From Isoetes taiwanensis (taxonomy: Eukaryota; Streptophyta; Lycopodiopsida; Isoetales; Isoetaceae): 64,000 nt of DNA. This document shows positions 4,001 to 58,213 of this stretch, one piece after another. Below the pieces are notes generated by a model. The model was given only the letters and a program-made list of their open reading frames with translations. It was not told the origin of the DNA and did not search any database. The stretch covers positions 186,001 through 250,000 of the forward strand of contig JAJEKV010000063.1 of assembly GCA_021234155.1 (NCBI GenBank). The letters run 5' to 3'. The position numbers and the translations under genes are program-made. Numbering within the stretch: the stretch's first letter is position 1; the number at the start of each line of letters is the position of its first letter.

Positions 4001-4584
4001 GTCCTGATCCGTAGTTAGCATATCCATTGATTAATGCTGTCCATGAAACCACATTTCTATGGGGCAACTTGTCAAAAACTTCTTGTGCCTCAACGAGTGA
4101 TGCACATAGCATACATGTCTACTAAGGCGCTGCCAATGAAGACATCGGATTCAAGCCCAGTTTCTTGAATCTTAGCATGAAATTTCCGACCTCTTTCAAT
4201 GTCATTTGTCCTAGCACATGCCCCAGTAAAGCTGTAAAAAGTATAACAACTGGGATGCACATCATCTTCTTGCATTTTCTGATACAGATTGAATGCATCC
4301 CGTAATTGTCCAGTTTCCATGTATCCTTTTATAAGAGAAGTCCAAGAGTGTTCATCCCGATAAACTAAACTGTGAAAAGCCTCATGAGCATTGGAGATGT
4401 TCCCACATGCAACAAGCATAGGCACAATGTGATTTCCTATAGTTTGATGGGCGTCCAGCCCATTCTCGCAAATGTGTCCATGTAAGCTGCTTGCACATTC
4501 TAAGCTTCTTTTCTTACCATATTTCTGCAAGGTGCATACAATGTCCGGAACACAAGACTGCATCGAAACCCGTATTCCAGCCAT
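1023..4584 (-). pseudogene. PPR-DYW editing factor, copy A, frameshifted
   Basis: Encodes a PLS-class PPR protein, a family that binds organelle RNA and edits C to U. Reading starts at the ATG at 4,584 (MAGIRVSMQS). A 2-base deletion near 4,105, just after the motif SALVDMYA, breaks the first frame. The next frame, 4,112-2,310, is 600 codons of PLS repeats (recurring SWNALIAGYAENG, NTLIDMYAKCGS). From about 2,340 to 1,023 several indels scatter the last repeats and the E and DYW parts over different frames, ending in CSCGDMW at 1,023. Intronless. Copy B (18,061-21,626) is intact exactly where copy A is broken at the C-terminal end. Either a decaying duplicate or a real gene with residual consensus errors in homopolymers; I cannot tell which. 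Confidence 0.85.
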
Positions 4585-6410: not shown

Positions 6411-6886
6411 GGTGACAACCATATGGATATTCATATCATACGAACATTATACTTGTATATACAAAAGATGGTCGTCACATGGATGCAAAAGGGTAGTTGC
6501 ACAGGACAAGGTTTGAACTTGCAATCTTCTAGTTGCAAACCACACACCTTTGCCAAGTACGCTACCAATACTTGTTAAAGACATTTCCTCATAATTCTAG
6601 AACATACATGCATGTGCGACACTTGGCGTGATCTCATATATTGGAGTGGCACGATCCTGACCATTGGCCTAGATATATAAGGAGGCACCTCCTTCTTGTA
6701 GAACTATTCCAGTTCAACGCTAGGCTTGAGCCTTCTAGGCATATGTCTCGTGTTCCTGCTTGCCTTCGAGCCATTGTACCCTTGATTCCTGTTCATATAT
6801 TAGATTTTTGCCGATCTTGGCGTATTTCTTTCGTATTTCTTGCATATTTTCGATATTTTCCCTTGTTTTTGTGTAGGTTCATGACA
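6411..6886 (+). mobile_element. Gypsy LTR, copy A
   Basis: Matches, in reverse orientation, the two LTRs of the full gypsy element at 38,782-39,286 and 49,465-49,984. It ends in GTTCATGACA. A TATATAAGG box followed by AGGCACCTCC lies at about 6,674-6,690. A tRNA-like segment with A- and B-box-like motifs sits at about 6,505-6,575 on the minus strand. Its gag follows on the same strand. Duplicated at 23,445-23,921. Confidence 0.8.
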
Positions 6887-6968
6887 ATTTGAACTGGAAT
6901 CCCTTACCAGTTCTTGCCTGCTCTGATCCTAAGCATTGCTTTATACATATTGGGTTGTTCTTGTCTCT

Positions 6969-8063
6969 ATGGAGGAAGTTTCATCCTTATTACACCAGGT
7001 CCATCAACTTGTTCAAGTATGCCAGCAGTTATAGTTGGATAACATGGAGCTCTAGGAATGGGTAGCTTCTCGTGAGGCAGCCTCTAGCTCAGGGAGGGGA
7101 TCATCAGAGCCTAAGATTAGCCTGGCAAAAAAATTTGATGGCACTAGATCCAAGCTCCGAGGTTTTTTCAATCAGATTTGGCTCGTTATTCGGCTCCACC
7201 CTCACAGGTACCCTACAGATCAGGAACAGGTCGGACTAGTTGACTCTCCTCTTTCTGGGTCAGCCTTGAGTTGGTTTGTTCCCCTACTAGAGAAAGGGGC
7301 TCCCGAGTTGCAAAATTTTGCTGCGTTTACTGCTGAACTTAAGGCATGTTTTGGAGACACCGATGGCAATGCACAGCAGTAACCAAGCTTGGCAACCTCA
7401 GGCAAGGTTCTTGTCCACCTTTAGTTTATGCTTCTGAGTTTTGACAGATTGCCATAGATACAGTCTGGGAAGATGCGGCTCTTCGGGACTGTTTTCGAAG
7501 AGGGCTCCATGAGGATGTAAACGATATGTTATCTTCTTATCGTGATACGAAGATAAATTCAATTCTCAAAACCAGCAAGCAAAAGAGAAACACTAAAAGA
7601 AAGCCCCATCTGGGTGTCTCCACTAAACAACACAATATACAATAAGGTCGCTTGAAGAAAGAACCGACAAGTGGAGAAACACAGAGATGAGCTGATGAAG
7701 ATGAAAAGGAAGAAATGTAGTATATATGCGAGAAAAACCTAACTACCAAGGGAGTCTAACTAACTAAAGGTAGCAATGGTTTCGAGAATTACATTTGTTG
7801 ACTATGGAGGATCCCAGAACCTTAGACGAAGCTATAAAGTTTGTGGTTCGTTGTGATAACTGACTTTTTGAGCGTAGGCAAGAAAGACGAAATTAGCACA
7901 TTTCTATACTTCCCCAAGCTCCAAAGAATCACAAAGAATTTTTGCACCACCCATCGTCCTCCTCGAATCGGTTGGCCCAAAGGCCTATGCAAATTGATGG
8001 TGTGGTTCGAGGGCCCTTGTCTATCATCTCGAGAAGCAATGCCAAGACCAACGGCCAACTGCC
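6969..8063 (+). pseudogene. Gypsy gag remnant, copy A, with inserted block
   Basis: Begins at ATG 6,969 with MEEVSSLLHQVHQL, matching the gag start of the full gypsy element (minus strand from 49,390). Gag-typical stretches follow (KFDGTRSKLRGFFNQ, LSWFVPLLEKG), interrupted by in-frame stops (for example after VCQQL). About 265 bp of unrelated, A-rich sequence (roughly 7,533-7,798) is inserted where the intact gag runs straight through. Gag then resumes with MEDPRTLDEAIKF and stops just before the zinc knuckle, where the inverted-repeat locus begins. No protease or polymerase remains. Confidence 0.8.
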
Positions 8064-23444: not shown

Positions 23445-23921
23445 GGTGACAACCATATGGATATTCATATCATACGAACATTATACTTGTATATACAAAA
23501 GATGGTCGTCACATGGATGCAAAAGGGTAGTTGCACAGGACAAGGTTTGAACTTGCAATCTTCTAGTTGCAAACCACACACCTTTGCCAAGTACGCTACC
23601 AATACTTGTTAAAGACATTTCCTCATAATTCTAGAACATACATGCATGTGCGACACTTGGCGTGATCTCATATATTGGAGTGGCACGATCCTGACCATTG
23701 GCCTAGATATATAAGGAGGCACCTCCTTCTTGTAGAACTATTCCAGTTCAACGCTAGGCTTGAGCCTTCTAGGCATATGTCTCGTGTTCCTGCTTGCCTT
23801 CGAGCCATTGTACCCTTGATTCCTGTTCATATATTAGATTTTTGCCGATCTTGGCGTATTTCTTTCGTATTTCTTGCATATTTTCGACGTATTTCCCTTG
23901 TTTTTGTGTAGGTTCATGACA
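23445..23921 (+). mobile_element. Gypsy LTR, copy B
   Basis: Duplicate of 6,411-6,886, including the TATATAAGG box (about 23,708-23,716) and the tRNA-like segment near 23,530-23,600. It belongs to the same family as the full element at 38,782-49,984. Confidence 0.8.
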
Positions 23922-24003
23922 ATTTGAACTGGAATCCCTTACCAGTTCTTGCCTGCTCTGATCCTAAGCATTGCTTTATACATATTGGGTTGTTCTTGTC
24001 TCT

Positions 24004-25093
24004 ATGGAGGAGGTTTCATCCTTATTACACCAGGTCCATCAACTTGTTCAAGTATGCCAGCAGTTATAGTTGGATAACATGGAGCTCTAGGAATGGGTAG
24101 CTTCTCGTGAGGCAGCCTCTAGCTCAGGGAGGGGATCATCAGAGCCTAAGATTAGCCTGGCAAAAAAATTTGATGGCACTAGATCCAAGCTCCGAGGTTT
24201 TTTCAATCAGATTTGGCTCGTTATTCGGCTCCACCCTCACAGGTACCCTACAGATCAGGAACAGGTCGGACTAGTTGACTCTCCTCTTTCTGGGTCAGCC
24301 TTGAGTTGGTTTGTTCCCCTACTAGAGAAAGGGGCTCCCGAGTTGCAAAATTTTCTTTGCGTTCTTCTGGCGAACTTAAGGCATGTTTGGAGACACCGAT
24401 GGCAATGCCGCAGTAAACCAAGCTTGGCAACCTCGAGCAAGGTTCTTGTCCACCTTTAGTTTATGCTTCCGAGTTTTGACAGATTGCCATAGATCTGATC
24501 ACGGGAAGATCGCGCTCTTGAATTTGTTTTTGAAGAGGGCTCCATGAGGATGTAAGCGATATGTTATCTTCTTATCGTGATACGAAGATAAATTCAATTC
24601 TCAAAACCGGCAAGCAAAAGAGAAACACTAAAAAAAAGCCCCATCACGGGTGTCTCCACTAAACAACACAATATACAATAAGGTTAAAGCTGAAGAAAGA
24701 ACCGACAAGTGGAGAAACACAGAGATGAGTGATGAAGATGAAAAGGAAGAAATGTAGTATATATCGAGAAAAACCTAACTACCAAGGGAGTCTAACTAAC
24801 TAAAGGTAGCAATGGTTTCGAGAATTACATTTGTTGACTATGGAGGATCCCAGAACCTTAGACGAAGCTATAAAGTTTGTGGTTCGTTGTGATAACTGAC
24901 TTTTTGAGCGTAGGCAAGAAAGACGAAATTAGCACATTTCTATACTTCCCCAAGCTCCAGCAATCAACAGCATTTTTGCACCACCCACGTCCTCTGAATC
25001 AGTTGGCCCAGTGCCTATGCAAATTGATGGTGTGGTTCGAGGGCCCTTATCTATCATCTGAGAAGCAATGCCGAAGACCAACGGCCAATTCTT
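24004..25093 (+). pseudogene. Gypsy gag remnant, copy B
   Basis: Same structure as copy A: ATG at 24,004, in-frame stops, and an inserted A-rich block (about 24,565-24,830) inside gag. It is more degraded around 24,350-24,530, where several short patches differ. It ends before the zinc knuckle. Confidence 0.8.
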
Positions 25094-39413: not shown

Positions 39414-41072
39414 TCACTTGGCAGTAACCTTCCCAATCGAAAGTAATACAATCGCCGACTTTAAGAAACTTGGAGTCCGTAATCTCGAACCCTCGAACTC
39501 CTCATGATCATCAATTTCTACCGGTGGTGGCGGCGAGGAATGCGATCTAGGAAAGTAATCGACCGTGGTAGGCCTCCAATAGAGAAACATGAAATATCGG
39601 GTGAAGCCAACAACCGGAGGGAGCTCGAGCCGTAATGCCACATTGCCGATCCGAGCCGCGGATCCGTATGACCAAACCGACAATAGTCAAGCTTTATTAA
39701 GTGGACGCGAGGTAGGGAGGTTCCTACGATGAAGCCGCATAAAGTCACCCATGTGAAATTTAGAGCTTCCCTCGCCGATACAAATCAGATAATGCCGATA
39801 GCATTCCCCTGCGCTCGAAGATGATGTCAAGATCCGATTGAAGAACCCGAGTTTCTCAAGTCGAGACTTCATAATAGGATTGACGGTCACCGCCACGCAC
39901 TAAGGAACCAACGAGGATGCTGACCAGAGTTTAGAAAGAACGGAGTCTGGCCAGTGGAAGTATGTACTGAGTTGTTATAGGCAAACTCAGCTAGTGAAAG
40001 ATAATCAACCCAATCATCCTGCTGATAACTGATGAAGCACCTTAAATATTGCTCCAGAGTCTGATTAGTGCGCTCTGCTTGCCCATTACTTTCTGGATGA
40101 TGACCAGATGTAAGTGAGCGGTCGATATGCAATAACTCCAAAAGCCGCTTCCAAAAACCCGCGACGAACTGCGGGTCCACGATCGCCGACGATAGTATTA
40201 GTGCGCCGCGAAGTCCCACTACTTCAACTAAGAAGAAGATCCAATGTGCCCTCACCGGTGATGGTGACGCTAGTGCAGAATAAAATGAGCCATCTTAGAG
40301 AAACGATCAAGAACAACCATGATGGCATCATAATCCCGAGAGCCTGGCAACTAGAATAAAGTCTATAGAAATGCTCTTCCAAGGTCCACCTGGTACTCTG
40401 GCAGTAGCTGAAGAAGTCCATGAGGAAGATGCCTTTGAACCTTTGCTCGACAGCAAGATGTCACAGATCGAATAAAAGCTTCGACAGAGCGACGAAGCCT
40501 CCAGCCACCAATACTCTCGACTAATAAGTTCAAGAGTCTTGGGCTACTCCAAAGTGTCCGGCCATAGGTGAATCATGGCAAGCTTGGAGAACTCGAAGCC
40601 TAGAAGCACCATCTGGCACATACAGAAGCCCATCATGGAACAGGAGTCCATCTCGATCCTCAAAATAATCATAGTCAGATCATATTTGCTGAGAAGATGA
40701 TGCAGATCCAAGGTGTGAGAATACATCTTGAGCCAATGGATCGGAGCACAGAGGTGCTCGAATAGACTCCAATAAGGCCGTATCATGAGGCCTCTCGAAC
40801 AAAGTGAGGGCCATAAGTCGAAAACCGACAGCCCTAGAATAACCCGTGGATTGCCGGGTCAAATGCGTGATCACCTAGCTTGGGCTCAAGGTAGGAGCTG
40901 CCGAGACAAGGCATCGCTTCCCTTGGAGGGATCCAGGATGGTACTTGATCAAGAAATCAATCCAAGATAATACTTGAGTATGCCACCGGGCCTGGCAATG
41001 GTTGAGCACTCGAGCAGACTGAAAATATTCTAGATTTCGATGATCCGCGGTAGACCGTGGACCTTATAAGGA
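39414..41072 (-). pseudogene. Gypsy RNase H end, integrase and C-terminal region
   Basis: From 41,072 minus: the remainder of RNase H ([10 protein letters not shown] in a shifting frame, then [13 protein letters not shown]-type text). Poorly preserved integrase N-terminal part follows over several frames. At 40,255-39,887 a well preserved core, VDPQFVAGFWKRLLELL and SGHHPESNGQAERTNQTLEQ and FAYNNSVHTSTGQTPF, contains the catalytic Asp and Glu motifs. C-terminal frames continue to 39,414. Several frameshifts. Confidence 0.88.
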
Positions 41073-43002
41073 GACTAGAAATTGCTTCAACCGCTGGTGG
41101 GCTTTCTATGTGATTGTATATGAAATTCGTAAGAAGGAAATTCAAAAAGGTGGATTATCATTGAGAACCTGCCTCTCCTCGGGATGCATAGGCAAAATTG
41201 GTTTTTTGCTTTGATGTCTCTGATCGCCGGCCAGCTCTAGGACCGCAGCAGTATATGTATATACAAAGAGAAAAAAAGGGATGTTCTAGTAACTGTGAAG
41301 AAAATCAGACCCGAAAAAGCAAAATCTTGTGCATCCGCCGGCCGCCAAAAACATTTCTAGTAGCCGTGAAGAAAATCGACCTAGGATCCGAAAAAGAAAA
41401 ATCCTATGCATTTGCCAAAGTCAAAACATAAGCATACATTATGCTTGAGAACCCAAATCCAAAGTACTAAAGGCTTAAAGAGGCAACGATGGTCCGGAGC
41501 TTAAAACATTGCCCCGATACTTCTCCGATAGCAACAAATTAGCCGATCAAGGCCATATTTGCACCGGCAAAAGCGATTCCAACCCATTAGTACACATATT
41601 ATGCCCACTGAATTATGAAAATGGAAAGGCGGCCACAGAAGAAATCCTTTGCTGCGAAACAGGGTTTGGATTTGTAGGTGAAAGCAGGGGCGACAATGGC
41701 ACCGGAGCTATGGTCGTTGACGGGGAAGCCGATACCTCTACTTGTGAATTATTTAACCCATATGAGAAGTTTGGACGCATGGGCTGTGGAGGTAGCAGCG
41801 GCGGAGGCACTATTTTGTGTCAATGATGCCACAATATTTCAACAGTGGACTATACATGGTTTGTTTTCATGTTGACAAAAGCTTAGGTTGAAAACATAGT
41901 GAATTTGCATTATATGTTACATTGAGGCCTATTAATGAATCTTTTCCACATCGTCAAGTTATGCATGTTCTTATCATGCATGCATTATGCAATAGTTGCT
42001 TATGAAGCCACATCATGCATGCGATAGTTGCTTGTGAAGCCAAATATTTCTCCATGACATGGTGACCCTATATGTAGAGCAGATTGAAGAAGTATATCAT
42101 AAAGGTAAAACCTTGCGTATATTCAAATCCCATAATCAAATACCATCTTGAAATTTGTAATTGTAGAGCTATTACAATGTAAGACTTCACTCTTCTTGGA
42201 GCAGGACTTTTTTACTTCTTTAAGTTTGTAATTGTAGAGCTATTACAATCCAAGATAGCCTTACACTTTTTCGAGCAAGTTCTATCTTCTTGATTACAAT
42301 GGAATCCTAAATAGGATATTCAAAGAAGATATAATTCTGATCACTGACAGGAACCAATATGGACATTATGGGCACACTAATATGGACATTATGGGCACAC
42401 TAAGCCATCTTGGTGTATAAATTATGAAATTAACTTCTCCTCTTCCATCATGTTAGATACCTTCTGGAATATCAACAGCGATGACTGCAAACTCGGCAAA
42501 GATGCAAAGTATGAAGTTAATGTTGCTTGGATATTCTGCCCCACAATGCTCTGCTAAGTGTTTTCATGTGCATATCCAAGTCATATGTGTTGTGTGTGGG
42601 AGTTCTGGCGGTCCTTTATATAATGATCTATAATACATTTAAATTGAAAACGGCACAAATTATCTTTAACTCCGTAAGATTCACCTGTCACAACTCCTGG
42701 TTACCCGCAAGTGATTGCACAAATAGGGTTGCAATGGATGCGATAAGAATAATCCACAATAAATGCATTGCATAAGAGTTCAGGATGAGAATTGTTCAGG
42801 TCACTCTCAACTGTCCATTATACCAAAACCAAGACAAAAAGCATTGCTTGAATGTGGCAACAACGTTCACACTCGTTCACATTTTGTAAAAGACGACCCA
42901 GAGTTGTCTGGATCTACATCGGCAATGCAAACCATGAATCCTGGACCAAAAAAGGCAAGAAATTTTAAAATTTCCTAGAAAATTTGTTGTTGTCATGCTG
43001 TA

Positions 43003-43385
43003 ATCATAATGCCCTGAACGTTTTGACCCTAACATAATTCAAATCCCTATAAAGCGTTACATTTTGACTTTTGTGATGCCATCTTTCTTCCGACTTGAAG
43101 CAAAGCCAGAATTGAGAATGAAGCATTTGGGAACCGCTACCTGCAACGAACATGTATAAAAATTTAGAACACATTCACAATGTAGCATTGCGAAGTGGTT
43201 GAAAAGTGTATAGAAGTTCTAAAATTAACAGATAATTTGTCCAGAACCATAATGCCATGAACCATCAAGCTGAACTATAATCCCTAAAATGCCCTAAACA
43301 TTTTGACCGTGACGTAATTTAAAACCCCACAATTTAAAACCCCACCCTGAGCCAAACACATGATGTTTTTTGTGATGTGTACCGC
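43003..43385. repeat. Degenerate direct repeat
   Basis: AATGCCCTGAACGTTTTGACC with the following 60 bases (from about 43,008) recurs in changed form from about 43,289 (AATGCCCTAAACATTTTGACC). Both are followed by strings like GTTACATTTTGACTTTTGTGATG / CACATGATGTTTTTTGTGATG. Confidence 0.55.
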
Positions 43386-45004
43386 GGTTCATATCGCTTC
43401 ATAAGATTTTAGAAACCCTCGCCGCCATATCCGCAAGAAGCGCCAACAATTTTGGAACACAATGTGGATTTCTTTCCAATTGGCAAATGTAATCCGCAAA
43501 AAAGCCTCGATCTACACAATATATGAGATATATTTGTGTACATATGAGAAATGACCATACAATTTCACATTCAACTTGTAATATACATTTTAGCATACAA
43601 CAAAAAGAAGATGAAGAGCATAATACAGCTGCAAATGTCATAAACCAACAAATGAATAGAACAGAATAGAATGATTTTGCATTTCCAAAATATAAACTCA
43701 AAAACTAGCTGAATATGGACATGATCAAGTCGAGATTTTGGCCCAAGAAATAGCAAAGAAGTTGTACGATCATTATAGGCTACAGGTGCAAGCATGACAT
43801 CTTTATCAAGAGAATCATCACTTATGCTTTTAGCAAAGAATAACTCTACCGTGATCCCATAGCCCTGTTGAACTCCTCCTTAAACAACTTAACCGCATCA
43901 TTTCACTTTTCGACATCAAAAAGCACCTACAAAATGACAATGTTGAATAGTTTTGCCTTTTATAGAGTTTCGTACCTTATAAGATGGGCATTCGGTGTTG
44001 CTTTTAGAGCCAAGTGTGCCTACTGATATGTTGTAAAATCCTTCATGTGTGTTCTCTGCCCGTGATGGCCGAAAGCATACAAAATAGCATCAACCATCTT
44101 CTCCTTCCGCATCACCGTATGAATTCTTGGATCCGCAATTTAAATTCAAGTGCACTCGCTTCTATGATTTAGTGATTAAAGAAAAACAGAAAAGACATGC
44201 TTAAACCAATAATTTACTTCCCGTGCATCTTGAATTCCTTCAACCATCGTCACTCTCGTGAAACCATTCAAGAGACATGGAACAATCCTTGCATTGAAGT
44301 GTTTCATGACAATTTGAGCCTCAAAAAAGACATCAATATCTGTAGGATCCCTGACAACCATAAGCAGAAGACATAGGACGCATAAGTGCTTCATCTATTC
44401 CTGTATCCATAGTAGAGATAGCATTGTTCAATACTTCTCAATATATCCAAGCTTCATAAAACTACATTCAAAAGCACCCATAAATTTGCTCATCATTACC
44501 TGCAAGGGAAAAAAGCAAATGGAGTTATGCCCCACGTGAGCCATTCAATCAATCCTCCAGATCATTTATGCATCCTGATCCTTTGCACTCCCCCAATATG
44601 CATGGTTCTACAATGTATGTGCTTTCACTCGTTAGCAGAATCCTCTCCATATTCGATGTATGGTGCTGGATTTTGAAAGATTCCTGAACAAACATCTCAA
44701 GTTATTTGCAGTGGCATATAAAAGAAACACTTCAATGCATCAATGCAGAACAATTCAAAACATAGCTATGCATTCGTGTTGGATATATAGCTGCATCTCA
44801 TGGCCTAAACAAATATGTGTCACTTAATAAAACGTGAGCCACATAGAAGAAGGAATACTGTTCAGAAAATAGGCAAGAGAAAAAGAAAGCCATTCTACAT
44901 AATCAATTAGGATCTCAAAGATGTAGAGCTTAATATGACAGAAAACAATGAAGAAAAAAAATGACTCTTGTTTCCTTACCACAAACACATCATGAAAATA
45001 TCAT

Positions 45005-45300
45005 CGGTTTTTAAGTCATTGATGTTGGTTTCGAATCCTCCGTGTTTGATACCCGATCATACTAACCGTAAGAAGACCATAGAATTAGGCATTTCAGCTC
45101 AAAACATACCTCCGCCAGAAGAAACATGTTCCATTATTGCAACAAGAGGGATTTTCAAGCGAAAATTGCATCCAAAAGATGTTTCTTGGTGCGTTAGCCT
45201 TTCCGCACATGCCGGAAGCTTCTAACCGAGCAAGCGGGATTTAGGTCATTGACAAAGGGTTTAATCTCGAATCCTCCGTGTTTGGTACCGATCATAGAAA
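45005..45300. repeat. Direct repeat of about 60 bp
   Basis: AAGTCATTGATGTTGG...TCGAATCCTCCGTGTTTG at about 45,012-45,051 recurs as AGGTCATTGACAAAGG...TCGAATCCTCCGTGTTTG at about 45,242-45,284, both followed by a GATCATA string. Confidence 0.6.
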
Positions 45301-46456
45301 TCTAAATGATCATTTCTTTGTTCTAAATGTACTATCATTTCTCCGGGTGGAAGATCTCCTAGGTATTGTAGAACCTGCATATAAATTGAAGGTGAAAGCT
45401 CAGATCTCCCAAGCTCCCAAGCTGCCATATGAAAATTGTGATTGCCTCATAAGCATGGCCATCCACCTTTTGAAGGCCACAGGTGCACACCAGGATGTAG
45501 GATTTGCTTCGTGATGTGCTCGCAAACCACCATCGAGCATTAATTCTCAGCTCGCTAGCATCATCTGCTTAATTGCCCCTGTTTTTCTGCCATCGTATCT
45601 ATGCACATCCGTTGTATTAGCATAAAGCCGGTGCTATGAAAAGCAGTACTGGCCACGATTCACAGAATTTTTGTTCTGATCCACGATTTGTTCAAGATTT
45701 ACAAATCAAGATGAGACTCCCACTTACGGTCCCCCTTTCAAAAAAAACAATCAATCCGATCTATCAACAGTTTCGATCCTTTGGGCATCAAAATAAATAT
45801 TCGGCAGAAAGCTCCTTTAGTGCTCCAGCATTTTTCCAGCATTTTTTCGGCTGGAGCCCAATCCCATTTAGAAAGTTGTGCCATAGCTGAGTAAGAGCGA
45901 GAGGAAAAATTGACGAACTAAAGAAAGAAGGAAAGAACCTGCCATAGCTGAGTAAGAGCTAGAGGAAAAATTAACACGGCCTTCTGATGTCGTGGATCTC
46001 AGCCAATGCTGGGGCATCACATCAAAGTGGAGGATTGTTTGGTGAGAAAACCTGAAAAGCTAATAGAAAAGGAGGATAGGGAAGCCGAAGACAACAGAAA
46101 ATTTGGATCTGAAGCCAACATTCGCTATATCTAACGACTAATCCGAGGAGTGAAGGTGAATCCGTTGGCCGGACCCTTGTAAGGGGGCCTAAAAGACGGG
46201 CTTCTCTCCGCTCTGCCTCCCCAGAATAAAATAGAGGAACGGAAGCATGAGCCCGAGTTAAATTCGCAAACCCCAAACTATGCCACTTTAAAATCATGAA
46301 ACGACGCCTCCTTTCTCTTTGCCACGTAGCCAAATCTGGATCCTCCATAGCGACGGAGGGACAAACGAACAAATGAAGGCCATCCGGCAAGGCGTGGACA
46401 TTGACACAATCTTGGCCATCGATCGGGCGCACAGACCGATGCCACGGTTTTATAAT

Positions 46457-46701
46457 ATAGGATCCCTCCAGAAAACGTCTCCACTCCTCGAAAGAATCCA
46501 ATATCGCCAACAACTCCTTGTAATAAATGGGATAGTTGATTTCAAAGACCAAACTTCGTGGAGTGATAGGCGATTGATGCAATTCATGGTCATCCCTCCT
46601 CGACATGATTCCACCAAGCGCAAAATCAGAAGCATCTCCTTCGACAATATATGGGTGCAAAGGATCTGCATGAGCAAGAACTGGCGCCGTGGTGAAAGCA
46701 T
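46457..46701 (-). pseudogene. Gypsy RNase H, N-terminal part
   Basis: HPYIVEGDASDFALGGIM carries the first RNase H Asp in a D-A-S context, followed by YYKELLAILDSFEEWRRFLEG. It is cut by the 5.4 kb insertion and continues at 41,072. Confidence 0.85.
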
Positions 46702-46729
46702 GCTTCAGGGTAACGAAAGCATGTCAAAG

Positions 46730-47876
46730 GAAGGGCGATCTATGAATAATCCTGAATGAAGCGCCGATAGAAATTGGCAAACCCAAGAAAACACTGAACA
46801 TCTTGAACGGATGAAGGTGTTTGCCACTCCAGAACAGTGCTGACATTTTCGAGGTCTATAGAGGCTCCATGTAGAGTGATGCGATAGCCAAGGAACTCCA
46901 CATTATCCTGCTCGAACTGACATTTCTCAAGTTTGGCATATAACTCATGCTCACGGCTTCAAGAACTCATTTAACATGCCTCTCATGTTCTTCGAGAGCC
47001 TTAGAATAAATAAGAATATCATCCAAATAGATGATAACAAAAGTGTCTAAGAACTCTCGAAAAACATCATTGGCCATATGCTGGAATACTGCGGGAGCAT
47101 TGGTAAGTCCAAACGGCATAACTGTGTACTTAAAATGGCTATATCGAGTACGAAAAGTTGTTTTCCACTCATCACCCTCCCGGATCCGAATAAGATTGTA
47201 GGCACCCCTAAGATCAATCTTCGTAAAATAATGCGCACCTCGGAGTCGCTCCAACAACTCTGGGATCAGAGGAAGCGGATACCGATTCGGTACTGTTATT
47301 TTATTGAGGCCGCAATAGCGAATCATCCTTCTTTTTGACGAAGACGATAGGTGCTCCAGCAGGGGACTGAGAATGTCGAATGAAGCCAGTGGCTAAATTC
47401 TCTTCAATATAATCCCGCAAAACCTTCAACTCAGCGGGAGATAGACCATATATCGGACCATATGGCGGCGTTGTTCCCAGCTGCAAATCAATAGGACAAT
47501 CATATGTACGATGCTCTTGGAGTTTGCTGGCCTTGACTTTGTCAAAAACATCAGAGAAGTCGCCATATTTATCTGGGAGCATTGAAGCAGACTTCGCTGG
47601 TGCCGAGCTAGCCGACGGGTGAACCTGGATTGTAAACACTGAACTTGGATCTTGCCTTCTAGATTTATCGAACTCGCGAAGAGAAATCTTTGAGATATGA
47701 AACCGAGGGCATGGAGAAGCCTCTACAAAAGCAGGAGCAGGAACATGAGCGGGAACATGAATGTGAGCAGAGCAACCGAACATGAACCGGAGCATGAATT
47801 GATCAAGAACTGAGCGTAAAATGTGGACCGGAGCAAGAACCGAAAGGTGAGCGTAAACCGAATTGGAACAGAGCAA
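46730..47876 (-). pseudogene. Gypsy reverse transcriptase
   Basis: From DKYGDFSDVFDKVKASKL and HRTYDCPIDLQLG, through [53 protein letters not shown] and [17 protein letters not shown], to the catalytic [13 protein letters not shown]. It then continues in other frames to the connection region. A frame change occurs near 47,310. Confidence 0.93.
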
Positions 47877-48173
47877 AAATTGAGCCGGACATCATTAAGA
47901 ATATGGTCAATCCGGGGCATGAACCGGAGCAGGGCAAGAGTCGAATCGTAACATGGAACGTAAAACAGAACATCAAGGACGGAATCGAGCCCAATGATAC
48001 CGCACGGATCGGGTTGATGTTGGTGTAGAGACCGATATGCATGAACCGGAACTAGAAGAACCAAAGAAATCGAAATGATCTTGCACGCCAATCAACTGGG
48101 GTCATGTAGCTCGAGCCGTAGGCACTCCAAGACTATTGGCGCATGAGGGCTAGCAATGAGATTGAAGGAAATA

Positions 48174-48446
48174 CTACAAGAAACTCCCTCGAACAAAACT
48201 TGAAGAGGCACAAAGACATTCTGTGGATCGCACTCGAGGAAATCTCCGCCTATCAATCACTTTGACGTAACCGCAATGCTCAACCTTGCTTCTAAGGATG
48301 GCATGCTTATCGGCGAAACGACTATCCATAAAGCAGGCATTTGCACCACAATCAAGTTGCGCCAACACTTGCAATCCTCCAACCTCTGTTTTCAATGATA
48401 TAGGGATGAAGAATACCTTGCTGACCTTATCCGATGGAATAAACAT
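48174..48446 (-). pseudogene. Gypsy aspartic protease
   Basis: The motif VLAQLDCGANACFMDSRFADKH has the D-C-G-A form of a retropepsin-like active site (D-S/T-G-A in most families). Frames between here and the reverse transcriptase (about 48,170-47,880) are broken. Confidence 0.75.
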
Positions 48447-48485
48447 GTCAAGAAATGTGGACGGCCAGCTGACGAGAGACTCCTA

Positions 48486-49390
48486 CTACTCCGACCGGCC
48501 CCTGAAGTTTTCCGACTGATTTGGGCGCTTCACCGGGCATCCACGAGCAATATGGCCATCTCCTCCACAGCAGAGGCAAAGGTTAGTCTCTCTCCGACGC
48601 TGCTTCTCGGCGGCAGGTAAAGGTCCTCGAACTGCCCGATCAATCTGCATAGGCTCAGGTCCTGACCTCCTGGATTCTACTAGTGACACCGAGGAGGACG
48701 TAGCTACAGGCGCTTGTGTGATTGGGAAGACCTGACTACGTTTGTCTTTCCTACGTTCGAAGAGCCGATTATCACATCGAATGGCAAATCTGATGGCTTC
48801 TTCCAAACTCTGGGGATCCTCCATAGACAACAACATATCTTTGACATCCTCACGTAACCCTCTTCGGAAACAATCTCGAAGTGCAACATCATCCCAGGCA
48901 GTATCTACCGCAATTTGACGAAATTCTGATGCGTATACTGAAGCTGGGCAAGAGCCTTGCCTTAGATTGCAAAGTTTTGTGACTGTTGTGCGCTGACGAT
49001 CGGTGTCTCCAAAGCATGTCTCGAGCTCTGCAGTGAACGCAGCAAAATCTTGCAAATATGAGGCTCCTTTCTCCAATAATGGAGCCAACTTAGAGCTGGC
49101 CCTGTGAGGAGGAAATCAATCAGCCCAACTTGTTCCTAGGCCGTGGGATATCTATGAGGGTGGAGCTGGATCACAAGCCTGATCTGATTAAAAAAACCAC
49201 GGAGCTTGGACCGAGTGCCATCAAACTTCTCTGGCAGACTGATCTTAGGCTCTGATAGCCTCAATCCAGAACTAGAAGCAGATTCATGTGAAGCAACACG
49301 TTCCTTTAGTTCTTTATTGTCCAACTGCAACTGCTGGCATACCTGAACAAGCTGCTGGACTTGCTGTAATAACGTCGAAACCTCCTCCAT
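48486..49390 (-). pseudogene. Gypsy gag with zinc knuckle
   Basis: Starts MEEVSTLLQQVQQLVQVC at 49,390, then KFDGTRSKLRGFFNQIRL. After a frame change near 49,100 come LEKGASYLQDFAAFTAEL, VYASEFRQIAVDTAWDD, MEDPQSLEEAIRFAIR and the CCHC knuckle CLCCGGDGHIARGC at about 48,540. This is the intact counterpart used to read the gag remnants at 6,969 and 24,004. Confidence 0.9.
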
Positions 49391-49464
49391 ATATATAAAA
49401 TCACCAAGCAAAAAAATGCTTAGGATCAAGCAGGCAAGAATCGGTAAGGGATTCCGGTTCAAAC

Positions 49465-49984
49465 TGTCATGAACCTACTCGAAAACAAGGAAAAATACAT
49501 GGAAAATACGCAAGAAATACGGAAGAAATACGCCAAGATCGACAAAGAATCTGATATATGAACAAGAATCAAGAATAAGATGGCCCAAAGGCAAGCAGGA
49601 ACACGAGACAGATGCCTAGAAGGCTCAAGACTGGCGTTGAACCAGAATGGTTCGCCAAGAAGGAGGTGCCTCCTTATATATCTAGGCCAACGGTCAGGAT
49701 CGCGCCACTCCAATGGATGAGATCTAGCCAAGTGTCGCACATGCATTTAGGTTCTAGAATGTTCTAGAACCTCCTAGAAATAGTCCTACATATGAGGGAG
49801 ACGTGAGATAATGTCTTCAATAAATATTGGTAGCGCACTTGGCAAAGGTGTATGACTCGCAACTAGAAGGTTGCGAGTCCAAACCCTCTCTTGTGCAACT
49901 ACCTTTTTGCATCCATGTGACGACCATCTTTTGTACATACGAGTATAATATTCGTATGATACGAATGTCCGTATGGTCGTCACA
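49465..49984 (-). repeat. 5' LTR of the gypsy element
   Basis: 520 bp, pair of 38,782-39,286, with the TATA-like box TATATAAGGA at 49,682-49,673 (minus) and the tRNA-like segment at 49,828-49,908 (plus). Followed at 49,985 by the target copy GTACT and the coding text of the host exon. Confidence 0.92.
49673..49682 (-). promoter_or_regulatory. TATA-like box in the gypsy 5' LTR
   Basis: TATATAAGGA in the transcription sense of the element, followed by GGCACCTCC. It is conserved in all four LTRs of this family in the window, as expected for the U3 promoter. Confidence 0.5.
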
Positions 49985-51334
49985 GTACTCCTCCTAATGA
50001 GAGGAAAAGGCACAGGGCTCGATGATACTTCTGCTTCAGGAACTTGCATTTGTGAAGGAATGGTTATAGAGAAACAATTGGAAACTTTTAAATATTGAAA
50101 CAGTTACAGAAATTGATTGCCTGCACTCACAAACACCAACCTGATATTTTTACTCTCTGGTTTCATCAGCTTTGTTCTTTTCCTTCTATTTTCTCCCACC
50201 TTTTCACCCACTGCATGATCTTCAGATTCTGCAACCACTGTGTTACCCTTGGCAGCAACTGCACTTGCTTGAAAGCACCCAATATTACTTGACGAAAAAA
50301 ATGTGATGACAAGATTTATAAGCTAATATTCTTACCTGCCACTAGGGAGTCCTGATCTGGTTTATTATTCTCTCTCGTATTGCAGCATTCTACTGGTACA
50401 ACTGTATGAAACATATACATCATTTAGACATCATTACCACACAACATTAATCATGGATCGAAACAGTACCACCTTTAGATACGTGGCCATAAGTTGGTGC
50501 CTTCTCCTTCACATCAGCTTCTGTTGCTTCTGAGCCAACTGCAAATTCAACATTTATTAAACTAGTGTGTAAGTAAAATAACAAAGCTGTAACTTGAATG
50601 TTTTACCCCCTGGTTGTTCTTCCTTTTCTGTTGTTGTCACACATTTGGATACTTCTTCATAGTTTTTTTCATGTTCTTGTGCAAACTCGTTGCCACCAAA
50701 AGCACGCAACCATGGGGAGGATATCATGTGTTGACATATGCAATAACAACACTTCCTTGTATACCTGCAACATCACATGATAACTGTGGAATTCCTATAT
50801 TGAAAGGAGATCTTGAACTATAACAACCTAATGATTACCTCAAATGATAGCTCAAACATGGGATATGATACCGGTGGCTGCATTAAGCTAACACAACAAT
50901 AGGGACAGGATGTTTCTCCTGCTTCTATTGCTAGTGGTAGAGGTGGTAATGCTGGATCAAAAGGAAAAGAACTTTCATCCCCCGCCATGCACAGTTGAAA
51001 TGTCTGAAATCTGGACTCTAGCTCAGTTATGTTCTCAATGGCTAGCTTTGTTTCAAAGGCCACATCATCCATCTCCTTCTTCAAAGATCTAATGCCAGGT
51101 AAGATTCTTTCATTAAGATCCTTACATGATACCTGCGATAGTTTCAGGTTGCTTCTTCATGACATCTTCATTTTCCTTGATTTTCAAGCTTGACCTTTCC
51201 CTTTTTAAGATCAAGAAGTTCAATTTGCCTTTCGAGTTTTCGCTGATTCTCTTCTCCATACTGAAGTTTGGCTTTAATAGCTATTAAAGCCTGTTCTGTA
51301 GACTGATGCCATGTATTTAATAAATTGCGAAAGT
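49985..51334 (-). pseudogene. Upstream exons of the HAD-domain gene (Cys-rich and basic exons)
   Basis: Seven exons can be drawn with GT-AG borders: 51,334-51,133 (coiled-coil-like, NTWHQSTEQALIAIK), 51,088-50,839 (ETSCPYCCVSLMQPP), 50,766-50,607 (CCYCICQHMISSPWLRAFGG, QEHEKNYEEVSK), 50,538-50,473, 50,401-50,336, 50,258-50,154 (GENRRKRTKLMKP, nuclear-signal-like) and 50,042-49,985 (PEAEVSSSPVPFPLIRRS). The last four join in intron phase 1, each starting with TT after a G or A. The last is cut by the gypsy LTR and continues in frame at 38,781. The first exon has a 1-base frame break near 51,175. I do not recognise the N-terminal family; with the HAD domain it could be a nuclear protein. Confidence 0.6.
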
Positions 51335-51587
51335 CTGCAATCAGGGAGACATGTGTTAGTGAGTTGTCATAACACAGGTCGATATACATCACATTTGCCA
51401 TCATACAACATCACCACATATCAACACACAATGCACCACCACACCATATTTGTCATCACATTTTTCATCATACTAACCTTGCAACAACACACCATATTTG
51501 ACATCATACTTGCCATCCTATCTGCCTCGTAAAACAACTTATCATATTTGACATCATAAATTGCCACCATACTTGTTTTTTTTTTTT

Positions 51588-52840
51588 GAAGGACGACAAA
51601 CTTTATTGAAACTCCAAGCCAAAAAGCAAAATACAAATGCAGAGGCGGGAATAAAGTCTCAGAGGATAATCATGATCCACTGAGTAGAACCACTAGCCTA
51701 TGCATAAGACAACACACTCAAATAGGACTCAAATATCAACTGTCGCTTGGCAGGAGCAAGCGAAGAGCAATGGTAAGCCTTAACAATTCTAGCTTGTGCG
51801 TCTTGGAGGACAACTGCAGGAGGAATATCCAAACCCTGAAAGATAGACAGTCTTCTGTGCTTCCAGATGGACCATAACAACCATCCTGATGCTAAATAAA
51901 ATGCTTGGCTCCGCAACTTATTCCAAGTATCCGGATAGACAGCCCGGCACTTGCTGTCGACTTGTCAATGTCACATGAAAAGAGAAAGCAGCCAAGACCA
52001 AACAAAGCGGAGATGAACACATAAAAAGAAACAATGCTCAATAGTCTCGTCCCTTTGCTTGCACAGTGGGCAGAGTGCTGACACTCGAGGATCAAATCTG
52101 TGGACAAGCACGTTCACACGAGGACATCTGTGAAGAATCTGCCACCAAAGCACAGCCACCTTAGGATGGAGTAGTTTATCCCAAGCCCAAGTCCACATAC
52201 GTCTCCAATTAGGAGGTGAAAGCTGAAGGGACCACCTAGTGGATGGCGGAAGGATATCACTATTGACAAGCAGCCTATACATAGAATTCACAAGCCTATG
52301 CTCATGAATACTCTGGTGGGAAACCCACATGCACCCTTCAATAGCCTCTGGAGCAACCAATGGCAGAGTACTAGCAACCTTTTGCCAAATAGGTCTGTCC
52401 CATCGAGACAATGAGAATTTTGTTTGAAAGATTTGCCATGTTGCTAACTGGCCAGAATCATACCATGCCGCAACTGTCAAGATTCCTGCTAACCTCCAGC
52501 GCCGTTGAGTTAATGGATGAACCGAGGCACAAAGTGGAAGATTATTTTCCACAGGTATCCACCAACAAGGGGCATTCAACTGATGACATGCAACAAGATC
52601 AATCCGAAATAGGGTCCGTATTGTCTCCCATGACTCCAGCAAGCCTTTCAAAAAAGGAGAGGCATTAGGAAAAGGGCATAGTTGATAAAAGAGACTCCAA
52701 GGAAGAAGCGGTTTTAATGAAGCTTTCCCAAAAGGAACACAATGTGCAAGTGACTGCTTCACCAACCGCACTCCAGGTGAGTCAACCATATCCTTAAGGA
52801 TCCTCCAAATGAATTTAGAAATTAGAATCTTACTCTGCAA
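51588..52840 (-). pseudogene. LINE C-terminal part: zf-RVT domain and 3' end
   Basis: Frame 52,840-51,971 reads SKFIWRILKDMVDSPG, then WTWAWDKLLHPKVAVLWWQILHR and CPLCKQRDETIEHCFFLC. This is the reverse-transcriptase zinc-binding domain (zf-RVT) typical of plant LINEs (W-x-x-W-x-x-x-x-x-P-K-x-x-x-x-x-W; C-x-x-C...H-x-F-x-x-C). A later frame (51,916-51,698) continues GWLLWSIWKHRR. A 3' end and polyA tail follow. Confidence 0.9.
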
Positions 52841-52847
52841 ATGGAAG

Positions 52848-55193
52848 TTTTCAGCTTTTGAAATATGTTGTTTTCAGGAGCACAAGTGCCGTAAAGGCGA
52901 GGTTCAAAAGCTGGCCAACATTTTGGGGCGTGATTATAATGTGCTTGTGGCGGCTGCTGATTCTGCTAATGCAGGCGTTCTTACTGCATGGAAGCCCTCT
53001 TTGAATGTCACTTTCACTCAAGTGGACAGGTTTGGTCGTTGGATAATTGTTAAGTGGAAAGAGCGGGGGCAAGAATGTGGTTTAGTGAATGTTTATGCTC
53101 ACAATTATCCGCGTCAAAGGGGAGCTTTGTGGGCCTCTCTTCGTAGCAAAGTTCTCAGGCTAGGCAATAATGTGGCATGGTTGCTCATTGGAGATTTCAA
53201 TATGGTTGAGATTGAGGCAGACAGGTGTGGCAGGGGATCACAGGTGGTTCAGGGATTTGAGCGGGAGCAATGGCAACGCCTGCTGCATGATTGTGGCCTT
53301 GTGGAGATCGAGGGTGATGAATCCTTCACATGGTGCAATGGATGGACAGGCAATGGTAGAGCCTATGCCCGACATGATCATGGCTATTATAATGCAGTAG
53401 CTGCTGATTTTCTTCAGTTGCAGAGAACTAATCTGTTGGATAGTGCGCCTCGTGATCATAATCCACAATGGTTCTCTACCGGACAACCTCTACGGCGAAG
53501 AGCTACAAAAACTTATTTCAAGCTCAATACTAAACATCTGAAGGATAGTGAATTCATTGCAGGTTGTCGGAATGCATGGTCTCATGAATTCTCTCGTAGT
53601 GGTGGCATGGCTGGTATTGTTGCTGCTCTCAGGGCTGTTAAATCCTTTGCAAAGCAGTGGGGTCATGCGCAGGTGGTTCGGACTAGAGGTGAATTAACCG
53701 GGTTGTATCAGGAGTTACAGAGATGCCGTGCTCTTGCCCCTTCTTCTGGTATTAGAGAGAAAGAAATCTTGACAGAGATTAAAGCCATTGAGACGGCTCA
53801 TGTGAATCAGGTCAGGATAAAGGCAGGACTAGAATGGTTTAGATCTGGTGATAGATGCTCTCACTTCTTTTTTCGGGCCGCTAAGAGAAGGCGTATGATG
53901 GCATCTATTAACTCTCTTATTTTGCCTGATGGTTCTGAGTGTTCTGATCCGGTTCAATTGAAGCAGTATCTTCACGACCACTTTTCCTCATTTTTTTCCA
54001 GGCATCAGTTGCCCTTTCAGGAGGATATGCAATCTGCAGTCTTGTCGAAGGTTCACCCCATTGTGTCAACAGAGCAGCGTGCACACCTAGAGTCAGAGAT
54101 CACCATCAATAACTTACACTCAGCAGCTTCTCTTTTAAAGAAAGACAAGTGCCCTGGCCTGGATGGTTTCCCAGTGGAATTTTTTCAGGAATATTGGGAT
54201 TGGTTGGGTTGCGATCTTTACAATGCTTTCTGTGAGTTTCGTAGGTTCAGAAGTTTGGATAAGATCATTAATACTGGCTGTATTTCTCTTATTCCCAAGT
54301 GTAAAGAGCCGAAGACAATATCTGACTGGCGCCCTATCACATTATTGTCTTCCGTGTATAAAATATTTGCGAAGGCCCTTGCAGACAAAGTGCGTGATGT
54401 CTTGGCTGTATCAATCTCTCCTACTCAATCTGGATTCTTGCCAAGGAGGAGCATTTTAGACAATGTTGCTGCTGCTTATGAGGGTATGTATTGGGCCAGA
54501 TTGAAAGGTCAACGTATAGTCTATCTTAAGTTAGATTTTGCCAAAGCATATGACAGTGTAGATTGGGAATTTTTGGAAAAAAGCCTCTTAACATTGGGCT
54601 TTGGTCGCCAGCTTCACCGATGATGTTATGAAGCTCCATATCTCTCAAGACGATCTCATGTGTTGTTTCAGGGGGAACCCTCCACTGTTTTTTCGGTTGG
54701 GCGAGGTGTTCGCCAAGGTTGCCCATTAGCTCCACTTTTGTTCACAATAGTAGCTGAGGTCCTCTCACAGCTATTTGCTAAGGCCATGCAGGACGGGATA
54801 GTGCAGGGGTTGAGTATGGAGGATGGTTCACAGGAAATTTGTAACCAGTATGCTGATGACACGTTCCTCTTTCTTGTTGCTGACACAGACAATCTTCAGA
54901 ATGCAAAGCTTCTTCTTGATACTTTCTCTTTAGCATCTGGAGTTCTTGTTGGTTGGCCAAAGTGTTCTGCATTATGGACGCTTGATGGGGTTGTGCCTTC
55001 TTGTGTTGCGGATTTTCCTTGGAAGGTGCTTCCTCATGGGAAGGCTACTAAACTTCTTGGTATACCTGTGGGTATTCATATTTCTACCTCTGATGCTTGG
55101 GATATTATCATTGAAGGGTTACGTAAGCATTTGTTTTGGTGGAATACTGCTAAACTCTCTCTGGCAGCATACTTGTTGGCCAGAGAGAGTTGA
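52848..55193 (+). pseudogene. LINE endonuclease and reverse transcriptase, inverted segment
   Basis: Open from 52,809 to 54,623. APE-type endonuclease motifs are QEHKCRKGEV, LLIGDFNMVEIEADRCG and DSAPRDHNP. Reverse transcriptase follows: KCPGLDGFPVEFFQEYW, CISLIPKCKEPKTISDWRPI, LADKVRDVLAVSISPTQSGF, YLKLDFAKAYDSVDW. A short frame break at about 54,620-54,660 precedes VGRGVRQGCPLAPLLF and the catalytic YADDTFLF. It stops at LSLAAYLLARES, where the foldback junction begins. No start of ORF1; the 5' end is cut. Confidence 0.93.
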
Positions 55194-55194
55194 A

Positions 55195-55669
55195 AACTCT
55201 CTCTGGCCTGTCCATCCATTGCACCATGTGAAGGATTGATCACCCTCGATCTCCACAAGGCCACAATCATGCAGCAGGCGTTGCCATTGCTCCCGCTCAA
55301 ATCCCTGAACCACCTGTGATCCCCTGCCACACCTGTCTGCCTCAATCTCAACCATATTGAAATCTCCAATGAGCAACCATGCCACATTATTGCCTAGCCT
55401 GAGAACTTTGCTACGAAGAGAGGCCCACAAAGCTCCCCTTTGACGCGGATAATTGTGAGCATAAACATTCACTAAACCACATTCTTGCCCCCGCTCTTTC
55501 CACTTAACAATTATCCAACAACCAAACCTGTCCACTTGAGTGAAAGTGACATTCAAAGAGGGCTTCCATGTAGTAAGAACGCCTGCTTTAGCAGAATCAG
55601 CAGCCGCCACAAGCACATTATAATCACGCCCCAAAATGTTGGCCAGCTTTTGAACCTCGCCTTTACGGT
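55195..55669 (-). pseudogene. LINE endonuclease, second copy in opposite orientation
   Basis: Equal to 52,890-53,355 of the plus-strand copy with few changes (GRDYNVLVAAADSAKAGVL, WLLIGDFNMVEIEAD, EGDQSFTWCNGWTG). Its 5' end at 55,669 starts almost at the same codon (R-K-G-E) as the other copy minus its first 40 or so bases, and abuts the right target duplication. Confidence 0.92.
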
Positions 55670-55895
55670 GCTACCATACTTGTGATGCTATATAACATCA
55701 TATTCACCTTTACATAATACAAACGTGTCAATCCATCACATTAGTTTGTAATATATTCCAACTACATTAGACCAAGAGATTCTTTAGTCAACTTTGAAAT
55801 CATTAAAGCATCGAACTATAGCTCTTAGAATCAACAATTTATGACCACAAGAATTAGGCCAAAAATTATAATAGTATGAGAGAAATAATTCATAC

Positions 55896-56044
55896 CCTCA
55901 AACGGCTCTTTTGAGCAAAATTGGGTATGGCGACTTCATCTAATGTCATATAATAGTGAAAAAACTTGGGAACATACAAATCAATATGTTTTATCATAAG
56001 AAATCGTTTGCTTTTAATTTTAGCAAGATTTGGATCCCTTTGTA
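55896..56044 (-). other. Possible further upstream exon of the disrupted gene
   Basis: Between an acceptor-like TTTTCTAG and a donor-like GAGGGTATG the minus strand is open: RDPNLAKIKSKRFLMIK, VPKFFHYYMTLDEVAIPN, FAQKSRLR. No family is recognised. If it belongs to the HAD-domain gene, the rearranged LINE lies in the intron that follows. Confidence 0.3.
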
Positions 56045-56614
56045 CTAGAAAATATGAAGAATGCAGTTCTGGACTAGTACGAAAACTGCTAAATTGTATG
56101 AGGTTTGGACAATTACCACAAGATGTGGGTGAATCCATTGGTCATGAAATTCTTCTAGATCATAAAGAATCAAGTGAAGATTCAAAAGGTGGTGGTAGAT
56201 TGCAAAATGGAGAAGTTCCTCTCTAGATATATAGGTTTAAGTGGCAGAGGTACGATGGACAAATTCTGGTCCATGGACCACAGATGGTCCATTGGACAAC
56301 TCTAGTGTTAAAGTGTGATGTTATTCTTCATCACTTACAAAATACAACATGGATAAATAACCCTTCTATTATGTAGTTGCAGTGAACTGTTTAGACATAT
56401 AATTATATTTCATCTAATCTACAACTATTCACATAATCAATTCGCCACATACAAGCTAATTAAGAATTAGTTTTGATTCCAAATTATAGAAATCTAAAAA
56501 AAGCAACCCTCTCCTACCCCTTGCCCCAAGCATGCCCTATTACTAGCTAAACTGTTCTTTGCCGATTTGAATAAGGAAGGTCTCCTAGACTTTATGTTGT
56601 GCAGCAACAACATT
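56045..56614. other. No feature recognised
   Basis: AT-rich sequence without motif or repeat that I could support. The plus-strand frame that ends at 56,226 is largely antisense to the possible exon at 55,896-56,044. Confidence 0.4.
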
Positions 56615-57165
56615 GAAGGGGGGGTCTCACTCAAAGCCAATGGTCGAAATTGGGGGATTCCTCCCTAGAATTTCTGTTTAAAGTTGAAAAAAATGTGATT
56701 CGATAAAGTAAATGCTGGCAAATTTTTGATCGAAGTTCCTAAATATAGTGTAAAATCTGACAAATTAGAGCTTTTTTTTTCCCAAAAGTCCAGTAAGCAT
56801 AAACAAAGAGCATCATTTTTGCTGCAAAATCTAGATTTGAGATCTAAAGCTCAAAGTGTTCTCTTTGATTGAAAAAAATTGCATCTTGATTAGGCCCAAG
56901 TTTGAAATTTATAGGCCTTGCTCCAAATGTTTTCATGATTGGATCCAAGCCAAGGGTCAAAATTTGGGGGGTTCCTCTCCACAATTTTCGATTAAAGTTG
57001 GAAAATTTGGATTTGATGAAGTGGACGTTAGCAAATTTTCCTTTGAAATTTTTTAAAAATAATACAAAATCCAGCAAATTAGAGTTTTTTTCCTCAAAAA
57101 ACTGGTAAGCATAAATAAAGAGCAGCATTTTTGTTGATTAATACAAAATTCAGATTCGAGGATCC
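56615..57165. repeat. Diverged tandem duplication, unit about 300 bp
   Basis: The series CCAATGGTCGAAATTGGGGG ... AAAGTTG ... GGTGCTGGCAAATTTT-like ... AAGCATAAACAAAGAGCA (56,637-56,810) recurs as CCAAGGGTCAAAATTTGGGG ... AAAGTTGG ... AGCAAATTTTCC ... AAGCATAAATAAAGAGCA (56,950-57,125). Frames across it are shared by both units and show no protein motif. Confidence 0.7.
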
Positions 57166-58213
57166 AAGCTCGTAAAGGTAGAGGGGAGGTCATTTCCTCT
57201 TATATCAGGTCTATTTTAAAACAAGTAGTGTTTTGCCGGTGACTTCCTCCTCCATCGCTTCCTCTGCTCTGCTTCAGTGAGACTGATAGCATGATTGGAT
57301 TTCTATGGTCCCGATAGCGCCACATGGCAATGAAATGGTCCCCCGAAACTTTATGTGGGGAAATGGGCGTCCGCAGACCCTCATGCGAGATGCGGACCAG
57401 GGGGCTCACCAGGCCCTTATTCCGCGTAAGTGCCTACGGACCCAAGGATGCCTATTATCCCTAACGTAAAAATAGAATGCCCCATTTTCTGCCCTATCTG
57501 CCTATAGGTGTCTGCCACGTGGCAGACATTCTTTCTAGGAATCAATCAATTCTGAACTCCATTTTCAAAGAATCACTTATTCTCAAACAATTTCTAAGTG
57601 TATGTTTTTGCAGTGCAACTTTCATGATCAGACAAAAAAATCGAGAACATTATACAGATATTCATCAGCACAGATATGAAATTACAGATATTCATCAAAC
57701 TTATTTCATCACAGATATGAATTACAGATTCACACAGATGAGTTCACATAATCATAGACTTTTGCATTCATAAAAGATCCATTAAACAAGTGCCATAGCT
57801 GCTGCTTGACTGCAAAGAAAAAGGTACTAGAACCTTGGCAAAGAAATTTGACCATTTCCTTCTTCCATGTAACCGAGTTTCATAGAAAATAAAGACACTT
57901 TGGGGATGCTTCGAAATTCCAGATTAGAGTACAAAATGTCTTCAAAATCCCGTCCAAGCTTCATAAAACATATGACTGTCTTGTTCTTGCTCTCTACATG
58001 CATCTTGTTAAGCTACTCAGGAATAGTTATATATGTGAAGAGCCCAAAACTAACTCTGCTACAAAAAGAGTGAAGAAAAACCAAGATTTGCAACTAAAAA
58101 GCAAGGAAGTCCAACCTATCGCCTCTAAGCTGTCTGCATCCCTTGAACATCAGACCTACAAAGAATACAAGCAAACAAAGAAAAAATCATAAAACCTAAC
58201 CAAGAAATCATAA
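57166..58213. other. No gene recognised
   Basis: A repeated string (ATTACAGATATTCATCA and variants) occurs three times around 57,650-57,740. Otherwise nothing that I can identify on either strand. Confidence 0.4.

Follow-up and report, generated by a model that had tools for sequence, protein, structure and literature searches.

The window analysed here is the whole 64-kb stretch of DNA at G000:C1071:186001-250000, and a rearranged mobile element lies in it at 51566-55682. The element is a LINE (non-LTR retrotransposon). In Pfam comparisons of separate pieces, Exo_endo_phos and RVT_1 were found on the plus strand within 52689-54620, RVT_1 again on the plus strand within 54624-55190, and zf-RVT on the minus strand within 51974-52873. 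The core has matches to PF03372 and PF00078 that exceed the Pfam cut-off, and a further endonuclease copy outside it, on the minus strand, reaches 22.5 bits (E 1.1e-4), slightly below the cut-off of 24.5. At the 3′ end there is a polyA of 12 A, and the insertion is flanked by a pair of ACCATACTTG copies, a motif that is single in empty paralogs. The zf-RVT domain suggests membership of an L1-like plant clade. Blocks were placed by comparison with ten family loci from the same genome, each 8 kb long, with L005, in element sense, as reference:

51566-51575, plus strand: left copy of the target duplication, ACCATACTTG, single in empty paralogous target copies
51576-51587, minus strand: polyA of the LINE, read as 12 T on the plus strand
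51588-52848, minus strand: sense 3′ part of the LINE with the zf-RVT domain, from about L005 position 5036
52849-52862, no strand assigned: filler of 14 nt at the inversion point, of which 11 nt (TTCAAAAGCTG on the minus strand) are an inverted repeat of 52903-52913
52863-55168, plus strand: inverted core with endonuclease and reverse transcriptase, L005 positions 2527-4832
55152-55165, plus strand: last bases of the core (S1), AAACTCTCTCTGGC, present twice more in the hairpin and with two bases unlike the family
55168-55176, plus strand: internal third target-like copy, CATACTTGT, whose first 1-2 bases are common to the element
55178-55208, no strand assigned: perfect hairpin of 14 bp with a 3-nt loop, an inverted and then a direct copy of the core's end
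55206-55668, minus strand: outer endonuclease copy, L005 positions 2553-3015, with GCC at 55206-55208 common to the hairpin
55669-55672, no strand assigned: TGCT, which may be filler or may continue the element beyond a loss of 6 nt
55673-55682, plus strand: right-hand ACCATACTTG of the target duplication, beyond which the native target resumes with TGATGC

Read along the minus strand, a sense endonuclease (55668-55206) comes first, then the inverted endonuclease-reverse transcriptase (55168-52863), and last the sense zinc domain with polyA (52848-51576); all LINE blocks sit between the two ACCATACTTG copies. The sequence-only reading of this DNA had given the same order, which is borne out by the arms, the Pfam domains and the ACCATACTTG pair, and the compound inverted structure of the LINE is confirmed. 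Compared with family relatives, homology of the inverted segment begins at about 52863, versus 52848 in that reading, and the reading frame of the inverted core is disrupted near 54623. The third target-like copy (55168-55176) and the hairpin (55178-55208) are additions to what the sequence-only reading had described. Core and 3′ part are colinear in 9 of 9 relatives holding both, among 10 long relatives fetched; the alignment of L002 is limited to the 5′ half. At the inversion about 203 nt of the element are missing, between L005 4832 and 5036. The outer endonuclease would start at 2543 in place of 2553 if AGCA is taken as element, and the 5′ limits of the two endonuclease copies are 16-26 nt apart on the element. 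The junction of 161 nt spanning the switch aligned as a whole at this locus only, with 40 scored of 622 candidates. A family-wide 5′ break point was rejected, as the other copies continue upstream in 30 of 30 cases, with 65-80 of 80 bases matching.

In the whole window ACCATACTTG occurs twice on the plus strand (51566 and 55673) and not at all on the minus strand. A dispersed repeat served as the target. Among 42 listed matches to it, six places besides L031 were fetched; these six paralogous copies (7 alignments) run across the site without insertion, and the exact GCCACCATACTTGTGATGC is present in 4 of the 7 empty-target alignments. The empty site, for which a search had been suggested, is represented by paralogous copies of the target repeat that are uninterrupted and have ACCATACTTG once. 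Given the pair around the element and these uninterrupted copies, the outer pair is a true target duplication. The target repeat at 51300-51575 and 55683-55775 has CATATTTG-like motifs, and in L032 two matching stretches stand side by side.

L031 (G000:C1071:350500-358500), on the same contig, aligns along the whole locus (window 49051-57070), with fully identical stretches alternating with stretches rich in changes and indels. Two further window pieces recur 113-115 kb downstream on this contig, at 84% and 95%. L031 is probably a second and still unpolished version of this region, from the other haplotype or from false duplication. A simple LINE at this place would have spoken against the sequence-only reading, and L031, noisy as it is, keeps the same order of large blocks; it also carries the window base at all four positions that differ between the endonuclease copies, in both of them. 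The third target copy and the full hairpin were not seen in L031, which is garbled there, so both features are read from the window alone. We also considered an assembly artefact, with inverted reads falsely joined, and find it very improbable. In its favour are the noisy near-duplicate that this contig carries about 115 kb away and the clustered changes in the window that are missing from the second version; however, both versions have both endonuclease copies and agree at the four differing positions in each, and the outer copy terminates at an exact target duplication followed by native flank.

As observations on the region itself, pieces of window 40000-58000 recur in a patchy, noisy form at G000:C1071:338790-359405 (84-95%). 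Two stretches on the minus strand, 6412-7213 and 23446-24248, match at 78-84% the part of L031 from 1 to 928, which corresponds to about 49.1-50 kb of the window; this is a repeat occurring several times in the window. Window-only changes are clustered at 53448-53452, 53810-53812, 51947-51954 and 52006-52007, where L031 has the family base, and these are likely residual assembly errors in the window.

When the two endonuclease arms (52889-53351 and 55206-55668) were aligned, as had been proposed, 463 nt paired without a gap and with 4 mismatches, two rare bases falling on each side. For comparison, 30 of 38 other listed places were fetched, with 40 scored of 870 candidates. Two bases, 52970 T and 53319 G, are confined to the inner copy and are present in 0 of 30 relatives. 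The rare bases of the outer copy, opposite 52986 and 53037, are each present in one of the 30, but in different relatives (L018 and L012), so no single other source is indicated, and derivation of the outer copy from another source RNA was rejected. The two copies have 53210 G in common, a base seen in one relative of 30 (L003).

Private changes after filtering amount to 2/463 in the outer copy, 2/489 in the inner copy, 8/1817 in the core and 3/1261 in the 3′ part, counts that rest on 30, 10, 9 and 9 relatives, respectively. L002 was excluded from the core and tail counts because it is without those parts. Before filtering, window-only changes were 18/1817 in the core and 11/1261 in the 3′ part; the 18 sites dropped comprise 6 in the core and 8 in the tail at which L031 has the family base, and 4 in the core that are unclear there. 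Since the filtered values are similar in the four blocks, there is no sign of different ages. Endonuclease copies of unequal age, the other observation that would have contradicted the earlier reading, are therefore not seen in the private-change counts, which are small enough to accommodate a modest difference.

The core and the 3′ part have the form of a twin-primed insertion: an inverted 5′ segment and a sense 3′ segment of one element within one target duplication, the gap at the inversion, and microhomology of 1-2 nt (CA), common to element and target copy, at the 5′ join, that is, the outer end of the core. Twin priming leaves two segments only, whereas here the outer endonuclease and the hairpin lie beyond the internal target-like copy. 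This copy, CATACTTGT, starts exactly where the core departs from the family sequence (55168) and stops where the polyT places the nick; the exact 9-mer is absent from the ten family relatives. A 9-nt match to the 31-nt target on either strand of a 38-nt piece arises by chance in 1.0% of random window pieces and in 0.4% of shuffled fillers; these rates are not negligible alone, and 1-2 of the 9 bases are the element's own. By an after-the-fact estimate, the edge position and target orientation lower the chance further, to about 4^-7 times a few starts.

At the inversion, 11 of the 14 nt of filler are copied in inverted form from 40 nt away, a match equalled by 1 of 20,000 random pieces compared with the 100 nt adjoining the join. 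At the outer join, the hairpin has the structure GGCCAGAGAGAGTT-GAA-AACTCTCTCTGGCC and repeats the last bases of the core, including two bases of this copy's own end that are unlike the relatives compared. The 18-mer with both unusual bases is single in the assembly, and the 31-nt hairpin, with up to 3 mismatches allowed, was found assembly-wide at this locus only. That the hairpin is a part of the LINE was rejected, as AACTCTCTCTGGCC is present in 0 of 10 relatives within 1 mismatch. From the hairpin, the sequence switches into the endonuclease via GCC. Microhomology, foldback and copied filler together form a footprint linked to alternative end joining of the polymerase theta type, and a footprint of this type, with all three components, is present at the locus. 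Judged from the junction sequences, the fillers, hairpin and GCC are marks of repeated template switching at short homology.

The sequence-only reading had suggested that twin priming and, after it, one more strand switch produced the locus, all within one target duplication. Twin priming stands, through the core, the 3′ part, the gap and the microhomology, but the account of the 5′ end is incomplete; the outer ACCATACTTG pair stands likewise, but the outer endonuclease is itself bracketed, by 55168-55176 and 55673-55683. Different target duplications for the parts, which that reading had named as evidence against itself, do not describe the locus, the same target motif being found at the outer endonuclease and at the whole insertion. 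Two independent nested LINE insertions were rejected on the same motif and on an outer piece without polyA. A single extra strand switch alone is insufficient for the third target copy. The target may have been used twice, or copied once without joining, and a second round at this site, closely coupled to the first, may be involved.

We consider it narrowly probable, from the arrangement of the junctions, that one coupled event engaged the target twice, through twin priming, an aborted join, foldback, a second endonuclease copy and a final join; prompt re-nicking of the restored site in place of the aborted join is included in this reading. It is favoured because CATACTTGT ends at the nick and the endonuclease limits nearly coincide. 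A nick after ACCATACTTG would prime a cDNA that starts at the polyA and reaches about position 5036, twin priming would yield antisense cDNA from 4832 to 2527, and both cDNAs would be joined via the short copied filler. The strand exiting the core at 4832 would then copy the target to the nick (CATACTTGT) without joining the right flank. The freed end would fold back twice onto the last bases of the core, switch via GCC into the endonuclease at 3015 and copy as far as about 2543-2553, close to where the first cDNA has its 5′ limit, as though both had reached the end of a single shortened RNA. The copied end would finally be joined to the right flank. For the steps from target copying onward, the LINE's reverse transcriptase and a host repair polymerase are candidates.

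The main weakness of this coupled event is that one flank strand can hardly be both the primer of the inverted cDNA and an intact final flank. An aborted target copy or a re-nick would solve the flank problem, and a re-nick needs a chance AC before the right CATACTTG, which is expected 1 in 16. In its more specific form, offered tentatively as a possibility, the LINE strand would have jumped onto the target, copied it to the nick (CATACTTGT), come off again, made new copies of its own end and of the same shortened RNA, and then joined the same target.

The outer part could also postdate integration, with a complete twin-primed insertion followed by a template switch in replication or break repair at its 5′ edge, in which 463 nt of the inner endonuclease were copied in inverted orientation and 9 bp of target duplicated. 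The hairpin, the GCC microhomology and the inverted copy are typical of such switching, the hairpin holds this copy's own two unusual bases, and PMC12350158 attributes human inverted duplications (277 of them outside mobile insertions, with a median of 284 bp) to replication. Nevertheless, a later switch has no reason to depart exactly at the insertion's own nick, or to end 16-26 nt from the 5′ limit of the core. Moreover, the right target copy has ACC like the empty site, versus AGC in the middle copy, and both unique bases of the inner copy are absent from the outer one, so that we regard this course as unlikely.

The ACC is accounted for, with all three target copies and without chance bases, if the order is reversed: a short endonuclease fragment carrying the hairpin would have come first and made a target duplication of 11 bp, and a twin-primed LINE would then have entered the left copy of this duplication. 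Such a first piece, however, would be without polyA. The hairpin already has core-end bases unique in the assembly, and therefore one RNA would have had to serve both rounds. In a genome of 1.66 Gb, a second and independent hit on these same nucleotides is very unlikely. Two rounds in this order thus seem to us decidedly doubtful.

Twin-primed (5′-inverted) LINE insertions were reportedly described by Ostertag and Kazazian (2001). The following comparisons draw on portions of each source. Copies of L1 with a 5′ inversion are common (639/2068, PMC2912911), and the locus resembles them in the inverted 5′ beside the sense 3′ segment, the gap, the target duplication and the microhomology, and differs in the outer sense endonuclease, internal target copy and hairpin outside the inverted segment. 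Among somatic human L1 insertions, 5′ foldback (n = 3, 0.3%) and foldback with internal inversion (n = 1, 0.1%) are ascribed, in the combined form, to twin priming and extra DNA synthesis of about 52-220 bp (PMC10191854); there as here, both lie at the 5′ end of a single insertion, whereas the foldback there apparently copies upstream target DNA, and here 463 nt of the element itself. PMC12350158 counts 2,916 internally rearranged among 5,523 non-canonical mobile insertions, alike in having several internal breakpoints each, and finds microhomology at most human inverted duplications outside mobile insertions; in the portions covered its junctions are given in less detail, so these insertions could include an equal case. 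Double template jumps of LINEs (PMC2104539) also place two jumps in one insertion with a target duplication around it, but fuse different RNAs, while here the same element is copied, with inversion. The '4-way' intermediate of PMC6895275 has LINE cDNA jump onto target DNA, with proposed extension by target copying, and if aborted it would be expected to leave an internal target copy as here; that work is based on R2 in vitro, with another endonuclease type, and leaves open its use by the type at this locus. Twin-priming variants and rates (PMC2837659 and PMC12016303) and chimeric insertions (PMC13174262) have been reported, and no internal target copy was seen in the portions of these three sources covered. 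In the literature searched, at partial coverage, we found neither this exact structure nor twin priming of plant LINEs, and the term occurs 0 times in two plant reviews among the matches listed.

The locus combines known processes in a rare compound variant. The 5′ completion of LINE insertions is poorly known, and the three target copies, two copied fillers and near-equal 5′ limits of the endonuclease copies put some of the integration steps in order. They also suggest a screen for LINE insertions that contain, internally, a further copy of the target duplication flanking them. If the tentative jump onto the target is true, the proposed jump of cDNA onto target DNA would have left a natural trace here, in a LINE with this type of endonuclease.
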